A stretch of DNA of 34,477 nt, from the NCBI GenBank assembly GCA_025059775.1, contig JANXCW010000006.1, forward strand, positions 86,361-120,837, read 5' to 3'. The translations under genes and the position numbers were made by a program. The notes beneath the pieces are model-generated. The model was given only the letters and a program-made list of their open reading frames with translations. It did not search any database and had not been told where the DNA came from. This document shows positions 204 to 9,549 of the stretch, one piece after another. How positions within the stretch are numbered: position 1 is the stretch's first letter; every line of letters begins with the position of its first letter. Source of the DNA: Armatimonadota bacterium (GTDB taxonomy: Bacteria > Sysuimicrobiota > Sysuimicrobiia > Sysuimicrobiales > Sysuimicrobiaceae).

Positions 204-432
204 ACTTCCGGGCCTCCTCGGGGGATTTGGGCTCGTTCCCTGGAGGAGTTCTGCAGGCAGTAGAGAAGAGTCCTTCCTGCGGGAACAGGGAGTAGCCCTG
301 GACTCCATGCTCAGGAAATCCACCGTGCACATGGGTAAGGAGGTGAGAGCCCCACCGGCAGATACCTAGAGAAGTGGCCTACCTCGGGGATTCTCCAAGG
401 ACAAGGGAGGATACGTAGAGGAGGTGGCGAAG
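204..432. other. Divergent intergenic region between the GerMN gene and coxS
   Basis: This 229-nt stretch separates two divergent genes and must hold both their promoters. Apart from the two ribosome sites at its ends I see no convincing -35/-10 pair, riboswitch, tRNA or repeat. Open frames crossing it have no family resemblance. Confidence 0.5.
417..426 (+). promoter_or_regulatory. Ribosome binding site that decides the coxS start
   Basis: The sequence AGAGGAGGTG lies here. Its GGAGG core (420-424) is 8 nt upstream of the GTG at 433, an ideal spacing. The alternative in-frame GTG at 424 overlaps the site and is therefore less likely. Confidence 0.6.
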
Positions 433-924
433 GTGAACGTCACGGTACGGGTGAACGGAAGGACCTACACACAGGACGTGGAGCCCCGCACCCTGCTGGT
501 GTACTTCCTCCGGGAGCATCTGGGACTTACGGGGACCCACGTGGGCTGTGACACCTCCAGCTGCGGGGCCTGCACGGTTCTCCTGAACGGCAAGGCGGTG
601 AAGTCCTGTACGGTTCTCGCGGTCCAAGCAGACGGCGCGGAGATCACCACCGTGGAGGGACTCGCCCGGGACGGGGAACTCCACCCCATCCAGCAGGCCT
701 TCTGGGAGGAGCACGGCCTGCAGTGCGGGTTCTGCACGCCCGGCATGATGCTGACGGCCCTGGATCTCCTGCAGCGCAATCCGAACCCCACGGATGACGA
801 AATCCGGCACGGGCTGGAGGGGAACCTGTGCCGGTGCACCGGTTACCAGCACATCGTGAACGCCATTCGATCGGCGGCGCGGATGATGCGGGGAGGCGCA
901 CCGGCCGCCGCTGGGGGGAGGTGA
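433..924 (+). CDS. coxS: Aerobic CO dehydrogenase-type small subunit, 2Fe-2S protein (CoxS family)
   Basis: This is the 2Fe-2S electron-transfer subunit of a xanthine oxidase-family molybdenum hydroxylase, 163 aa, a normal length. The plant-type ferredoxin cluster is bound by C39, C44, C47 and C59 (CDTSSCGAC ... C). The second cluster is bound by C98 and C101 (CGFC) and C133 and C135 (CRC). In the family these clusters carry electrons from the Mo centre to FAD. The GTG at 433 is preferred on ribosome-site spacing; the GTG at 424 would add three residues. It is first in a coxS-coxL-coxM operon, the order typical of form II enzymes. The same fold serves in other hydroxylases (nicotinate, isoquinoline, aldehyde), so the substrate is not fixed by this subunit. 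Confidence 0.92.
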
Positions 925-929
925 GGGGA

Positions 930-3293
930 ATGGCCGTAACGCAGGTCTTCGGCGCCAGGATCCGGAGGCGGGAGGATCCGAGGCTCATCACTGGACTTGC
1001 CACGTATACGGACGACGTGGTGCTCCCCCGCATGTGCTACGTAGCCTTTGTACGCAGCCCGCACGCCCACGCACGGATTCGGCGCATCGACACGAGTCGG
1101 GCAAAGGCGGCTCCCGGGGTGGTGGAGGTACTCACGGGGGCTGATCTGGAGGGGAAGGTGCAGCCCATCCCTTGCGGATGGCTGGTTCCGGGCTGCGATC
1201 TGAAGACCCCGCCGCATCCCGCCCTGGCCAAGGAGAAGGTCCGGTACGTGGGAGACGCGGTGGCGGTGGTGGTAGCGGAGAGCCGGGCCCAGGCATACGA
1301 CGCCGCAGGGCTGGTGGACGTGGAGTACGAGGTGCTGCCCGCGGTGGTGGACATGGAGCAGGCACTCCGCGGGGAAGTGTTGGTGCACGAGGACGTTCCT
1401 CAGAACCGGGCGCTCCTGTGGGCCCTGAAGGGAGGGAACTTCGAGGCGGCCGTCCGGGAGCCCGGGGTACGGGTGGTGCGGCAACGTCTCATCAACCAAC
1501 GGCTCATCCCCACCGCCATGGAGCCCCGGGCCGCGGTGGCCCAGTACAATCCCGTCACAGGCGAGCTCACTCTCTGGAACACGAGCCAGGCGCCCCACAT
1601 CGTCCGCGTGCTCCTCTCGGGCACCTTGGGGATCCCGGAGCATCGGATACGGGTCATCGCGCCGGAGGTGGGAGGAGGGTTCGGGAGCAAGATCCCCTTC
1701 TACCCGGAGGAGGCCGTGGTGGCCTACCTCGCCACCCGGCTGGGACGGCCCGTGAAGTGGACGGAGACCAGGCGGGAGAACTACCTGGGAACCATCCATG
1801 GACGGGACCACGTCACGGACGCGGAGATCGCCGTACGGCCGGACGGGACCATCGTGGGCCTTCGGGTGCGGACGCTCGCGAACCTCGGCGCCTACCTCTC
1901 CACCGCGGCTCCCGCCATCCCCACCCTGCTCTACGGGCTCATGCTCAGCGGCGTCTACCGGATCCCGAACATCGAGTGCGAGGTCACGGGGGTGTTCACG
2001 AACACCACGCCCACGGACGCGTACCGGGGAGCGGGACGGCCAGAAGCCACGTACGTGGTGGAGCGCATGGTGGATCTGGCGGCCCTGGAACTGGGGATGG
2101 ACCCCGTGGAGTTCCGGCGGAAGAACTTCATCCCCAAGGACGCCTTCCCGTACGCCACGCCCACGGGAGTGGTGTACGATAGCGGGAACTACGAGGCGGC
2201 CCTAAACCGGGCCCTGGAGATCCTCGACTACGCCAAGGCCCGCTCGCAGCAGGAGGAAGCCCGCCGCCAGGGGCGTCTGGTAGGCATCGGGTTCTCCACC
2301 TACGTAGAGGTGACGGGCGCGGGACCCTCCAAGATCGCGGGCGCCACGGGCTTCCAGGGAGGCCTGTGGGAGAGTGCGGGGGTGCGCTTCTACCCCACGG
2401 GGAAGGTCACGGTGTTCACCGGCACAAGCCCCCACGGGCAGGGGGAGGAGACCACCTTCGCCCAGATCGTCTCGCAGGAGCTGGGTGTTCCTCTCGACGA
2501 CATCGAGGTGATCCACGGGGATACGGATGCCATCGCCATGGGTTGGGGAACGTACGGGAGCCGGACCACCCCGGTGGGTGGAACCGCGGTCTACCTGGCG
2601 GCCCAGCGGGTGAAGGAGAAGGCCATGCGGATCGCCGCCCATCAGTTGGAGGTGGCAGTGGAGGACCTGGTGTTCGAGAACGGGCGGTTCCACGTGCGGG
2701 GCGCTCCCGAACGGGCCATCACCATTCAGGAGGTGGCGCGGCAGGCGTACTTTGCGTGGAACCTGCCCGAGGGAATGGAGCCGGGACTGGAGGCCCAGGC
2801 GAACTGGGATCCCTCCAACTTCGTCTTCCCCTTCGGGGCGCACGTCTGCATGGTGGAGGTGGATCCGGAGACCGGACAGGTGAGATTCCTGCGGTACATC
2901 GCGGTGGACGACTGCGGGCGGGTCATCAACCCCCTCCTCGTGGACGGCCAGGTCCACGGGGGAATCGTCCAGGGCGTGGCCCAGGCCCTGTGGGAGTTCG
3001 CCGGGTACGACGAGAACGGGAACCTGCTCACCGCCTCTCTCGCGGACTACGCGATCCCCAAGGCCAGCTGGCTCCCTTGGTTCGAGGCGGATCGGACGGA
3101 GACGCCGAGCCCCGTGAACCCGCTCGGGGTGAAGGGGGTGGGTGAGACGGGCACCATCGCGGCCACCCCGTGCGTGGTCAACGCGGTGATGGACGCCTTA
3201 AGACCCCTCGGCATCCGGCACATCGACATGCCGCTTCTGCCCGAACGGGTGTGGCGTGCCATCCAGGCGGCGAAAGGAGGTGGAATAGGATGA
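930..3293 (+). CDS. coxL: Molybdenum hydroxylase large subunit, form II CoxL type
   Basis: A 787-aa Mo-cofactor-binding catalytic subunit. The ATG at 930 has a GGGGAGG ribosome site 8 nt upstream, 5 nt after the coxS stop; a longer in-frame reading upstream is only coxS in another frame. Visible family motifs are the N-terminal 'RREDPRLITG', the molybdopterin-contact 'VGGGFGSK', the mid-protein 'GQGEETTFAQI', and 'GVKGVGETGT' near the C-terminus, which carries the catalytic glutamate. The active-site loop at residues 364-370 reads AYRGAGR. Known form I CO dehydrogenases have AYxCSFR with the Cu-binding cysteine; AYRGAGR marks form II, for which CO oxidation is disputed. CO, an aldehyde or an N-heterocycle could be the substrate. 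No cox maturation genes lie in the window. Confidence 0.9.
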   Translation: MAVTQVFGARIRRREDPRLITGLATYTDDVVLPRMCYVAFVRSPHAHARIRRIDTSRAKAAPGVVEVLTGADLEGKVQPIPCGWLVPGCDLKTPPHPALAKEKVRYVGDAVAVVVAESRAQAYDAAGLVDVEYEVLPAVVDMEQALRGEVLVHEDVPQNRALLWALKGGNFEAAVREPGVRVVRQRLINQRLIPTAMEPRAAVAQYNPVTGELTLWNTSQAPHIVRVLLSGTLGIPEHRIRVIAPEVGGGFGSKIPFYPEEAVVAYLATRLGRPVKWTETRRENYLGTIHGRDHVTDAEIAVRPDGTIVGLRVRTLANLGAYLSTAAPAIPTLLYGLMLSGVYRIPNIECEVTGVFTNTTPTDAYRGAGRPEATYVVERMVDLAALELGMDPVEFRRKNFIPKDAFPYATPTGVVYDSGNYEAALNRALEILDYAKARSQQEEARRQGRLVGIGFSTYVEVTGAGPSKIAGATGFQGGLWESAGVRFYPTGKVTVFTGTSPHGQGEETTFAQIVSQELGVPLDDIEVIHGDTDAIAMGWGTYGSRTTPVGGTAVYLAAQRVKEKAMRIAAHQLEVAVEDLVFENGRFHVRGAPERAITIQEVARQAYFAWNLPEGMEPGLEAQANWDPSNFVFPFGAHVCMVEVDPETGQVRFLRYIAVDDCGRVINPLLVDGQVHGGIVQGVAQALWEFAGYDENGNLLTASLADYAIPKASWLPWFEADRTETPSPVNPLGVKGVGETGTIAATPCVVNAVMDALRPLGIRHIDMPLLPERVWRAIQAAKGGGIG

Positions 3294-4156
3294 TCCCCGC
3301 GACCTTCGAGTACGTCCGGGCACATTCCGTGGAGGAGGCCATCCGCCTGCTCCAGCAGTACGGGGATCGGGCGAAGCTGCTGGCGGGCGGGCACAGCCTT
3401 CTGCCCCTCATGAAGCTGCGCCTCGCCCAGCCCGAGGTGCTCATCGATCTCGGCCGGATACCGGAGCTGCGGGGGATCCGGGAGGATACGGGGGGACTAC
3501 GGATCGGAGCCATGACCACCCACGACGAGATCGCCCGCAACCTCCTGGTGCAGCGGCAGTGTCCCCTGCTGGCGGAGACGGCTTCCCAGATCGGCGATAT
3601 CCAGGTTCGCAACATGGGGACCATCGGCGGAAGCCTCGCGCACGCGGATCCTGCCGCGGATTATCCCGCGGCGGTCCTCGCCCTGGAGGCCGAAATCCAC
3701 TGCCAGGGCCCAGGAGGGGGGCGTACCGTGAAGGCCACGGACTGGTTCGTGGACCTGCTCACCACCGCCCTCCAGCCCGGAGAGGTCATCACCGAAGTTC
3801 GGGTCCCCGTGCGCAGAGCGGGGCAGGGCTACGCGTACGTGAAGATGCCCCATCCCGCCAGCGGCTACTCCCTCATCGGGGTGGCCTGCCTCGTAACCCT
3901 GGAGGGCACTGTCTGCCGGGAGGCGAGGGTGGCCATTACCGGCGTAGGCCCCAAGGCCGTGCGGTTGGGGAAGGTGGAGGGGGCTTTAGTGGGCAAGACC
4001 CTGGACGAGGCCGTGGTGGCGGAGGCGGCCCAGCTCGCAGCGGACGGTCTGGAGGCTACGGACGACCTGTATGCCTCTGCGGAGTACAAGCGCCACCTGG
4101 CCACCGTTTACACCAAGCGCGCCGTGCTGCGCGCCGTGGAGCGCGCCAGGGCATAG
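3290..4156 (+). CDS. coxM: Molybdenum hydroxylase medium subunit, FAD-binding (CoxM family)
   Basis: A 288-aa FAD subunit that would pass electrons from the CoxS clusters to a quinone or other acceptor. The ATG at 3290 overlaps the coxL stop (ATGA), and AAGGAGG lies about 9 nt upstream, so translation is probably coupled. The two FAD-binding signatures are clear: 'LAGGHSLLP' at residues 31-39 and 'NMGTIGGSLAHADPAAD' at 108-124. The N-terminal 'FEYVRAHSVEEAI' is also typical of CoxM and CutM proteins. The C-terminal third (about 170-285) matches the CO dehydrogenase flavoprotein C-terminal domain. It is the last gene of the operon and ends just before a strong palindrome. Confidence 0.92.
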   Translation: MIPATFEYVRAHSVEEAIRLLQQYGDRAKLLAGGHSLLPLMKLRLAQPEVLIDLGRIPELRGIREDTGGLRIGAMTTHDEIARNLLVQRQCPLLAETASQIGDIQVRNMGTIGGSLAHADPAADYPAAVLALEAEIHCQGPGGGRTVKATDWFVDLLTTALQPGEVITEVRVPVRRAGQGYAYVKMPHPASGYSLIGVACLVTLEGTVCREARVAITGVGPKAVRLGKVEGALVGKTLDEAVVAEAAQLAADGLEATDDLYASAEYKRHLATVYTKRAVLRAVERARA

Positions 4157-4194: not shown

Positions 4195-5673
4195 TCATAC
4201 GGGCGCGATTCCCAGCTTCCAGGCAATCCACCGGTCCATGGACATCCCCTCTACCACCCCCTCTGCATCCAGAAGACCCCTGCGTACTTCCCCCACGGTT
4301 CCGGAGTACTCCGCGTACACATCGTGGGGATGGATGGTCTCGAAGTTGGTCTGTCGGGCCAGCAGGAAGGCATCATCCGGGAGGTCCGGATAGCGGTCCA
4401 GGAGGTTCCGGATCATCTCCCGGACCGCATCCTCCACGAACCGAGGGCGTCGGTGCGCCTTCGCCACCAGGAACAACTCGTCCGGCCGCTTGAGGAGGTC
4501 GTAGATCTCCGCGCTCATGGCCGCCTCCACCACGCTGGCCAGCTCCTCTGCCCGCAGTACTCCCACCCCGCCCACCATGAGCCGGCCCGTTCCCCGCTGG
4601 TTGTGCGTGGCGAGTGGCACCACCTGGAGCACGTGTTCCGCCACCTCCGGGCTGATGCCCTCCTCCAGGAGTCGCTCCCGGGCGTAGGTCCGGATCATGT
4701 CCTGGGCACACGGGCAGGCCATCATTCCCTCTACCTCGATTCCCACGAGCCGGACCGTGCGCTGCGGGGTGCTGGCAGCTCGGGCCAGGAGGGTGTACAG
4801 CTTCTGGGTGGACTTGCCCGAGGCGGGAGCATAGCGGGTGGTGGGAAGGTGCGCCCGGATGAAGACCTCCGCCCGCCGGGCGTCCTGAGCCGCGATGAGC
4901 TGATGCGCCATCCGCTCCGCCACCGTCTCTAGATCCGGCGCGGGCTCGTCCGCGGCCTCCTCCAGGATCTCCTCCACGCTGTCGCTGAACCGGGACATGT
5001 GTACCCCCCGCTGGTTCGGGCCCAGATCCACGTAGAGATCCATCTCCGCGTAGAAGAGGTTGTCGCGGCCACCGTCGAGGATGCGGACGATGCGCCGCAG
5101 CCCCGTGATCCCCACGCGACTGAGACCCAGACGGAGGGCGGGTGGTTCTCCCTGCACGTCCCGGCGGAGCTGGGTTCCGAAGCCCGGCCGCACCCGTGCC
5201 ACGCGGCCCTCCCGTTGGGCTGCCTGGGCCGCAAGTTCCGCCATGGACTGCCCCCGCTGAGGGTGGAGAAGGTCCGGGGCAATCTCCGCGAGGGGAACGA
5301 GCACAAAGGCCCGCTCCGTCATCCGCGGGTGCGGAATCACCAGTTCCGGAGTTTCTAGCACGAGGTCGTCGTAGAGCAACAGGTCCAGGTCAATGACCCG
5401 GGGGCCGTACCGCACCGTCTCCTGCCGTCCCATCCACCGCTCGATGCGCTTCAGGAACCGGAAGAGCTCCAGAGGATCCAGCTCCGTCTCCACCTGGACC
5501 ACCATGTTCAGGAACCACGGTTGATCCGCGTAATAGGCGGGCTCCGTCTCGTAGACGGAGGAGACTCGGACGATCCGAGCCCGTTCCCGCAGCTGCTGCA
5601 GCGCCTCCAGGAGGTTCGTATGGCGATCCCCGAGGTTGGAACCCAAGCCGATCCATGCGGTATGCGTGGCCAT
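4195..5673 (-). CDS. folK: Fused FolK (pterin pyrophosphokinase) and MptA/FolE2-type GTP cyclohydrolase
   Basis: A 492-aa two-domain protein of pterin/folate synthesis. Residues 1-155 are FolK (6-hydroxymethyl-dihydropterin pyrophosphokinase): 'IGLGSNLGDR' at 8-17, 'ETEP' at 42-45, 'GPRVIDLDLLLY' at 90-101 and 'IPHPRMTERAFVLVPLAEIAP' at 113-133. Residues 170-465 are a GTP cyclohydrolase of the FolE2/MptA type: 'CPCAQ' at 320-324, 'ATHNQRG' at 355-361, and 'ARQTNFETIHPHD' near 439-451. The CPCAQ form resembles archaeal MptA more than the CPCSK form of many bacterial FolE2 proteins. The two activities are the first and a later step of one pathway, and are usually separate proteins. The ATG at 5673 has AGGAGG about 9 nt upstream. 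It is last in the thrB-led cluster. Confidence 0.88.
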   Translation of the reverse strand: MATHTAWIGLGSNLGDRHTNLLEALQQLRERARIVRVSSVYETEPAYYADQPWFLNMVVQVETELDPLELFRFLKRIERWMGRQETVRYGPRVIDLDLLLYDDLVLETPELVIPHPRMTERAFVLVPLAEIAPDLLHPQRGQSMAELAAQAAQREGRVARVRPGFGTQLRRDVQGEPPALRLGLSRVGITGLRRIVRILDGGRDNLFYAEMDLYVDLGPNQRGVHMSRFSDSVEEILEEAADEPAPDLETVAERMAHQLIAAQDARRAEVFIRAHLPTTRYAPASGKSTQKLYTLLARAASTPQRTVRLVGIEVEGMMACPCAQDMIRTYARERLLEEGISPEVAEHVLQVVPLATHNQRGTGRLMVGGVGVLRAEELASVVEAAMSAEIYDLLKRPDELFLVAKAHRRPRFVEDAVREMIRNLLDRYPDLPDDAFLLARQTNFETIHPHDVYAEYSGTVGEVRRGLLDAEGVVEGMSMDRWIAWKLGIAPV

Positions 5674-8415: not shown

Positions 8416-9330
8416 TCACCTCCGAAGCACATGGGCTTGAACGCGCGTCCCTTCCAGATCCACCCGTGTAACCACCGCTCGAGCCCGCACCCCGTGTCCG
8501 ATGAAGGCCGCCTCCATGGCTTCCGCCACCCGCACAGCCTGCCACGAAGGCGCAAAGGCCAGGAGGGAGGGACCGGACCCGCTCAGCGCCACCCCCAGGG
8601 CTCCCGCCCTTCGGGCCGCGGTGCACACATCCTCGAAGCCCGGTACCAGGGGCTTCCGGTACGGCTGGTGCAACCGATCCTCCATGGCGAGCTCCAGGAG
8701 ATCCCACCGGCTCGTCGCAAGGGCTCCTATGAGGAGCGCCGTCCTGCCCACGTTGAAGGCCGCGTCCTCCCGGGGCACCCGGGAGGGCAGCCTCCCGCGT
8801 GCGAGGGCGGTGGGAACCTCAAACTCCGGGATGGCCACCACGGCCGTGGGGAGGTCCCGCACGGGCAACCGTACCCAGTGCACCGTCCCGTCCTCCATCA
8901 CCGCCGCGGTCACCCCCCCCACGAGGGCGGGAACCACGTTGTCCGGGTGGCCCTCCAGGCGGGCGGCGAGGGAGGCAAGGTGCGAACGATCCAGGGGTCG
9001 TCCCAGCAACTCGTTGGCGGCCACCATTCCCCCCACGATGGCGGCGGCGCTGCTGCCGAGTCCACGGCCCAGGGGAATGCGGTTCCAGCAGCGGAAGGAG
9101 AACGCCACCTCCGCACCCACGGCATCCGCCACCGCGCGGGCGGCCCGGTACACCAGGTTCTCCTCGCCCTCCGGGAGCAGGCCTTCCCCCTCCCCGTGGA
9201 GGGTGAGGTGGGGATGGTGCGAGAGGCTCGCCTCCACCTCGTTGTAGATGCTCAGGGCAAGGCCCAGGGCATCGAACCCGGGTCCCAGGTTCGCGGAGGT
9301 GGCTGGTACGATCACCCGGAGCGTGGACAC
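8416..9330 (-). CDS. thrB: Homoserine kinase
   Basis: A GHMP-family kinase making O-phosphohomoserine from homoserine and ATP. The protein is 304 aa from the GTG at 9330 (MSTLRVIVPATSANLGPGFD), the usual ThrB beginning, with GAGGGGG just upstream. A longer in-frame reading would run back through the terminator and riboswitch and is rejected. The ATP-binding motif 'PLGRGLGSSAAA' is at residues 86-97, 'EGHPDNVVPALVGG' follows in the middle, and the C-terminal GHMP motif 'GALGVALSGSGPSLLAF' is present. It is the first gene after a promoter, SAM-I riboswitch and intrinsic terminator, so its expression should fall when SAM is abundant. Confidence 0.94.
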   Translation of the reverse strand: MSTLRVIVPATSANLGPGFDALGLALSIYNEVEASLSHHPHLTLHGEGEGLLPEGEENLVYRAARAVADAVGAEVAFSFRCWNRIPLGRGLGSSAAAIVGGMVAANELLGRPLDRSHLASLAARLEGHPDNVVPALVGGVTAAVMEDGTVHWVRLPVRDLPTAVVAIPEFEVPTALARGRLPSRVPREDAAFNVGRTALLIGALATSRWDLLELAMEDRLHQPYRKPLVPGFEDVCTAARRAGALGVALSGSGPSLLAFAPSWQAVRVAEAMEAAFIGHGVRARAVVTRVDLEGTRVQAHVLRR

Positions 9331-9345
9331 ACACCCCCTCGGTGC

Positions 9346-9376
9346 AAAAAAATTGCCCTCCGAGCCTTCGGAGGGC
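9346..9376 (-). terminator. Intrinsic terminator of the SAM riboswitch
   Basis: On the minus strand, arms GCCCTCCGA and TCGGAGGGC form a perfect 9-bp stem with a short loop (9355-9376), followed after AA by seven T residues (9352-9346). The 3' strand of the riboswitch P1 helix contains GAGGGC (9391-9386), which can pair exactly with GCCCTC in the terminator 5' arm (9376-9371). That is the expected antiterminator, so SAM binding would free the terminator and switch the operon off. Confidence 0.9.
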
Positions 9377-9385
9377 CAACCGTGC

Positions 9386-9494
9386 GCCCTCATCTCTCGG
9401 AGCTCGGCTCCGCGGGAGTTGGCACCTTGCCGGCAAACAACCGGCAGGTTGCCGGGGGTCATCGGGCCCGTCCCTCGCCCACTCTGGATGAGGT
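9386..9494 (-). ncRNA. SAM-I (S-box) riboswitch aptamer upstream of thrB-thrC
   Basis: The minus-strand RNA matches the SAM-I core in order: CCAGAG-TGGG, GAGGGACGGGCCC then GATGA, CCCGGCAACC, a P3 hairpin (TGCCGG ... CCGGCA), GGTGCCAACTCC, a P4 hairpin (CGGAG ... CTCCG) and GAGAGATGAGG. The closing P1 helix is CCTCAT (9493-9488) with ATGAGG (9393-9388). These are the conserved S-box elements, so recognition of S-adenosylmethionine is very likely. It is followed by a terminator and thrB. Confidence 0.94.
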
Positions 9495-9520
9495 GCCGCT
9501 ATGCAGTTTTGCTTGAGCGT

Positions 9521-9549
9521 ACCCTACCAGCCCCGCGGGCGGTTGTCAA
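9521..9549 (-). promoter_or_regulatory. Sigma-70-type promoter of the thrB-thrC operon
   Basis: A perfect -35 box TTGACA (9549-9544) is followed after 17 nt by TAGGGT (9526-9521), which keeps the three most conserved positions of TATAAT. Transcription would start near 9514, about 20 nt before the riboswitch P1 helix. Confidence 0.75.

Follow-up and report, generated by a model that had tools for sequence, protein, structure and literature searches.

A SAM-I riboswitch in front of thrB and a probable metM-type gene in an Armatimonadota bacterium

The window (the whole stretch of DNA that was analysed, 34,477 nt) carries on its minus strand a SAM-I riboswitch in front of two genes, thrB and a gene annotated as thrC. 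Very probably this leader is a transcriptional OFF switch by which SAM feeds back on thrB-metM, an operon for methionine synthesis from O-phosphohomoserine. At low SAM the 3' strand of P1 would capture the terminator's 5' arm by pairing, letting RNA polymerase run on into thrB-metM. With SAM bound, P1 would close, the terminator would form and transcription would end before thrB. ThrB would convert homoserine to O-phosphohomoserine, and the MetM-type enzyme would replace the phosphate of this intermediate by the sulfur of a carrier thiocarboxylate, yielding homocysteine. Threonine would be made by a separate canonical threonine synthase, ThrC2, encoded with hom and lysC. Since the second gene would then be a methionine-pathway enzyme, the switch would perform ordinary methionine feedback via O-phosphohomoserine. 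What looked like a SAM switch on "threonine genes" would then testify to a widespread route to methionine, the key enzyme of which the databases call threonine synthase.

In Streptomyces, MetM and MetO are reported to form homocysteine from O-phosphohomoserine and a carrier thiocarboxylate (Hasebe et al. 2024, described in PMC12172450). According to PMC12172450, MetM of S. albulus is a homocysteine synthase with a SAM riboswitch upstream, and metO is a gene of the sulfur-carrier family. The window gene likewise encodes a ThrC-like PLP enzyme behind a SAM riboswitch. Unlike in S. albulus, thrB lies inside the same riboswitch operon, and the adjacent carrier, which is present in most of the clade and of the relatives from the phylum, is missing in the family of the window. 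The pathway itself has been reported in Streptomyces; added here are its linkage to riboswitches in several phyla, a thrB within the operon and the absence of MetO from its side in this family.

The leader RNA

The leader matched RF00162 from end to end with 85.6 bits (E 4e-19, gathering cut-off 44.4), in agreement with the SAM-I riboswitch which an earlier note had recognized from the letters. RF00162 was the sole Rfam family above cut-off in the window, and the aptamer was the only RF00162 match in the 2.35-Mb genome (99.2% complete). Coordinates are given in the table.

Positions of the features discussed in the text; positions refer to the window unless a locus is named
Feature	Position	Strand	Basis
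-35 box TTGACA	9544-9549	-	sequence; phylum-wide TTGAC comparison
-10 box TAGGGT, weak (3/6)	9521-9526	-	sequence; 17-nt spacer to -35
SAM-I (S-box) riboswitch aptamer	9387-9494	-	RF00162 covariance match
P1 3' strand GAGGGC, alternative partner of terminator 5' arm	9386-9391	-	complementarity
GCCCUC, 5' arm common to antiterminator and terminator	9371-9376	-	complementarity
Intrinsic terminator stem-loop, 9 bp, -18.9 kcal/mol	9355-9376	-	pattern scan and folding
U7 tract of terminator	9346-9352	-	sequence
thrB, homoserine kinase, GTG start, makes O-phosphohomoserine	8416-9330	-	TIGR00191 279.7 bits, cut-off 168
metM-like gene (annotation "thrC"), PLP enzyme, N-terminal CxxC...CxxC zinc-ribbon-like segment	7189-8412	-	profiles, tree, neighbours
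Single ORF, HPPK and GTP cyclohydrolase parts	4195-5673	-	
Three molybdenum hydroxylase genes	424-4156	+	sequence
Sulfite reductase-type protein with carrier domain	L027:2705-4636 (contig C2)	-	
PF02574 homologue, two ends	L202:4925-5361 (contig C8)	-	
Sub-threshold RF01725 match, G006	L203:3652-3783		
Sub-threshold RF01725 match, G005	L204:5559-5691		
Sub-threshold RF01725 match, G003	L205:6037-6141		

The perfect terminator stem with seven U and the exact 6-nt antiterminator pairing that had been described for this leader were both found. The P1 3' strand is an exact complement of the terminator 5' arm, and the terminator/antiterminator pair is exclusive with P1, as in an RF00162 expression platform. 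By folding, the antiterminator hairpin has -10.7 kcal/mol, as against the value of the terminator in the table. When the antiterminator was enforced and the 3' arm of the terminator was not yet made, the fold lay at most 1 kcal/mol from the best one. The TTGACA promoter also stands, with a -10 box that is weak. A pattern scan listed no minus-strand promoter at this leader because it needs four matches out of six in each hexamer and the -10 box has three.

Promoter and antiterminator were compared over 40 riboswitches, 39 in the phylum and that of the window. TTGAC with a spacer of 17 or 18 nt was present 48-70 nt upstream of all 40 (TTGAC in 6.7% of shuffles), and the 3' end of the aptamer had a complement of at least 5 nt in a downstream arm at 37 of the 40 loci (6.7 expected from shuffling); the loci are related and their counts are not independent. 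By these features the leader is an ordinary, well-formed SAM-I riboswitch, and it is predicted to bind SAM and to lower expression. A decayed or ligand-switched relic that exerts no control of the genes would be expected neither to keep a full-length, high-scoring aptamer and an intact platform nor to be retained across the phylum, and we regard the chance of this as negligible. Compared with known RF00162 riboswitches, the aptamer and the termination platform are the same; the genes behind them are thrB-metM, not metY, metA, metI or metK-type genes.

Genes behind the riboswitches of the phylum

In a sample of 43 genomes of the phylum from 22 genera, 37 had an RF00162 match. Two of the other six (G004 and G007) have no metM either, and in G037 the contig begins too near metM to judge whether a riboswitch lies upstream. 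In the remaining three, G003, G005 and G006, matches to RF01725 (SAM-I/IV-like) were located upstream of metM with sub-threshold scores (33.8-38.6 bits, threshold 41.1), suggesting no more firmly than that a change of riboswitch class is possible.

Outside the genome of the window 39 riboswitches were found in the phylum. At 29 of them a metM-like gene follows, whose product is 60-96% identical to the window "ThrC", and three end at a contig edge. The 29 loci comprise thrB-metM (14), hom-thrB-metM (3), hom-thrC2-thrB-lysC-metM (1) and metM directly behind the riboswitch (11), so that thrB is included in 18. A small carrier gene directly follows metM at 22 of the 29, and AMAGG occurs in all 21 carrier proteins that were extracted. 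The carrier is missing at six loci, which are those of the window's own family and of G042, and one further locus is cut by the contig end. A search for a carrier-gene remnant downstream of the window metM gave no credible candidate. Of two neighbours that are common in the clade without being universal, the upstream SAM riboswitch is present at the window gene and a metO directly downstream is absent there and in its family.

In four genomes (G008-G011) the riboswitch precedes metY-metA, and no MetM-grade protein is encoded in any of them. Both genes were named by sequence recognition, metY additionally by its PF01053 match. That the riboswitch stays while the methionine route behind it is exchanged argues strongly for methionine as the product of the operon. 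Three further targets, likewise named by sequence recognition, were seen in single cases, namely an archaeal-type metK (L097), a metH-like gene with MetE-like genes behind it (L077) and sufS/sufU-like genes (L095).

Two ThrC paralogues and the metM clade

The earlier note had called the first genes homoserine kinase and threonine synthase. The first assignment was upheld by the TIGR00191 match, and the start of ThrB is corrected to what is most likely the GTG in the table. The second was not, as the window protein falls into a different clade from ThrC2 of the same genome. This genome encodes six PALP proteins. ThrC2 (TIGR00260, 289.5 bits) is located in a proC-pheA-thrC2-hom-lysC cluster away from the riboswitch operon, and in 14 stretches read from relatives, thrC2 is accompanied by hom, lysC or both in 11 (by both in nine) and by neither in three. 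Of the 130 proteins in a tree, 112 fell on the side of the window protein and 18 on that of ThrC2, with an internal branch of 0.75 substitutions per site between them. ThrC2 groups with the solved threonine synthases of T. thermophilus (1UIM) and A. aeolicus (2ZSJ), and the window protein does not. It shares fold family and ancestry with these canonical enzymes and forms a separate clade. About 19 core positions are fixed differently between the two clades, among them L135/T88, N202/S155, Y207/R160 and S236/N188 (window/1UIM numbering); some of the differing 1UIM residues presumably bind the substrate phosphate. The N-terminal CxxC...CxxC extension was found in the window clade alone among the sequences compared, and canonical ThrC is without it. 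Profile scores over the 43 genomes split cleanly into values of at least 635 bits and values below 340 bits.

By tree and fixed residues the window protein belongs to a carrier-linked, ThrC-like clade distinct from ThrC; its identity with the MetM clade is judged by cyanobacterial and Nonomuraea relatives as proxies for MetM of S. albulus. A search of the PDB returned threonine synthases and dehydratases only, and no solved MetM was identified among them. The label "threonine synthase" is probably wrong for the window gene, which is a probable gene for a MetM-type, O-phosphohomoserine-dependent homocysteine synthase. Where a SAM riboswitch is linked to a metM mislabelled in this way, the riboswitch can serve as a marker for correcting the annotation.

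The window protein might instead be a working threonine synthase, with SAM repressing the threonine and methionine branches jointly. This cross-control had been proposed before as an alternative explanation, and several observations fit it. The NCBIfam profile names the protein threonine synthase (thrC equivalog match), the only GHMP homoserine kinase is encoded in the riboswitch operon, and in G041 the riboswitch heads hom-thrC2-thrB-lysC-metM-carrier, i.e. the whole homoserine branch. In addition, ThrC of M. aeruginosa, which is 51.6% identical to MetM, produced threonine in vitro (PMC12172450), and members of the clade may for this reason be bifunctional. However, a second, canonical ThrC clusters with hom and lysC, the clade of the window protein is tied to carriers and SAM riboswitches in several phyla, and the riboswitch has been swapped onto metY-metA in four genomes. 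Moreover, thrB is missing from the riboswitch operon of family f5, which consists of metM and the carrier; both f5 genomes for which clusters were read have thrB in hom-thrC2-thrB-lysC. Joint repression by way of a threonine synthase is accordingly unlikely. Cross-control may still occur as a side effect, thrB being the sole GHMP homoserine kinase gene, but the second gene of the operon is not a canonical thrC. The comparative evidence from paralogues, clade and linkage to carriers and riboswitches favours the other explanation offered for this operon, in which O-phosphohomoserine is the methionine precursor and ThrB serves methionine.

The clade was followed beyond the phylum in a scan of 84,980 species genomes, from which the 80 closest loci among the matches listed were taken. 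These belong to Actinomycetota, Chloroflexota, Cyanobacteria, Aquificota, Nitrospirota and others. In most of the 80 loci among the matches listed a carrier gene lies just downstream of metM on the same strand; Nitrospirota-type loci have the order cysM-metM-carrier-mec. Because many riboswitches escaped a strict regular expression for the SAM core, a covariance model was built from 21 aptamers of the phylum and run over 910 kb around the loci. It gave 39 matches including that of the window, each lying upstream of metM or of the operon that contains it, and none in these 910 kb away from metM operons. Among the matches listed, a SAM riboswitch lies upstream of the operon at 38 of the 80 loci, among them all 24 with an actinobacterial title, and the model found none at the loci of Cyanobacteria, Aquificota or Nitrospirota. 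Clade members linked to a riboswitch range from Actinomycetota to Chloroflexota; in Nonomuraea the riboswitch (68.7 bits), metM and the carrier stand in succession. Members with carrier or riboswitch neighbours were also present in Aquificaceae and Acidimicrobiia. Aquifex aeolicus and Acidimicrobium ferrooxidans had been reported to be without any homocysteine pathway then known (PMC5764234).

Other routes to homocysteine, sulfur donor and threonine supply

In the genome of the window (99.2% complete) no PF01053 protein scored over the cut-off, which all 14 controls reached. The search for metA and metX suggested by the earlier note gave no metA and no credible metX; the best MetX score was 22.8 bits with a model whose cut-off was reached by no control, and this absence is therefore the weaker one. 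Genes for an acyl-homoserine route (MetA or MetX with MetY or MetB) were thus not found in this genome, the MetX part being the weakest. DUF39 (PF01837), the mark of the HcyBio route, was found in none of the 43 genomes of the phylum and matched three of the 14 controls. Methanogens and sulfate reducers use this DUF39 route from aspartate semialdehyde (PMC5764234), and the analogy to methanogens that had been drawn for O-phosphohomoserine does not hold. The genome also contains a homologue of homocysteine S-methyltransferase (PF02574; metH) of which only the two ends are left; the middle has been deleted and the frame changes, which marks it as either a pseudogene or an assembly fault.

PF01053 is not absent from the phylum as a whole. 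That idea was rejected, since every genome except that of the window (42 of 43) has a match over the cut-off. Nor do the four phylum enzymes that were scored look like MetY; they resemble methionine gamma-lyase or cystathionine gamma-lyase/synthase. By this resemblance they may function in methionine degradation or reverse transsulfuration. One PF01053 gene (L099) sits in a CysO-CBS-SerK-CysM-Mec cluster. Cystathionine gamma-synthase of plants uses O-phosphohomoserine, and a plant-like enzyme of this family, so widespread in the phylum, could make homocysteine from it with the second gene of the operon being incidental. We consider this very improbable, as none was found over the cut-off in the nearly complete window genome and as it is metM, whether thrB accompanies it or not, that is conserved next to the riboswitch.

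If homocysteine is formed by the MetM-type enzyme, sulfur would probably come from a carrier encoded elsewhere than beside metM. One cluster of the genome contains CysO, a SerK/SbnI-like kinase, CysM and a JAMM protease, which amounts to a version of CysO-CysM-Mec. In Mycobacterium tuberculosis that system likewise combines a phospho-amino acid with a carrier thiocarboxylate; its product is cysteine, not homocysteine. In the HcyS pathway of Wolinella succinogenes carrier-delivered sulfur is used for homocysteine, with O-acetylhomoserine and a MetY-type enzyme in place of the O-phosphohomoserine and ThrC-like enzyme proposed here. A sulfite reductase-type protein of the window genome carries at its C-terminus a ThiS/SAMP-like carrier domain with a final GG, and its gene adjoins PAPS-reductase-like and ATP-sulfurylase-like genes; a sulfite reductase-carrier fusion has been reported in actinobacteria (PMC1779556). 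Because no MetO is encoded beside the window metM, CysO or the carrier fused to sulfite reductase is the likely sulfur donor of MetM.

The thrB-metM arrangement poses the specific question whether SAM control limits threonine as well. The genome encodes two GHMP kinases only, the operon ThrB and an IspE-like protein. Since ThrB is thus its only GHMP-type homoserine kinase, SAM may also throttle the threonine supply in the lineage of the window, provided that neither leaky read-through nor a kinase of another family makes up for it. The combined proposal, that SAM gates the sole homoserine kinase of the cell and hence the O-phosphohomoserine for threonine, and that MetM without MetO uses CysO or the sulfite-reductase-fused carrier, is advanced tentatively, at somewhat less than even chances.

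Elsewhere in the window, three genes recognised from their sequence only encode the small, large and medium subunits of a molybdenum hydroxylase, possibly of the CO-dehydrogenase type. A single ORF combines an N-terminal HPPK (folK) with a C-terminal MptA/FolE2-type GTP cyclohydrolase; as a fusion for the synthesis of folate or pterin this looks unusual.
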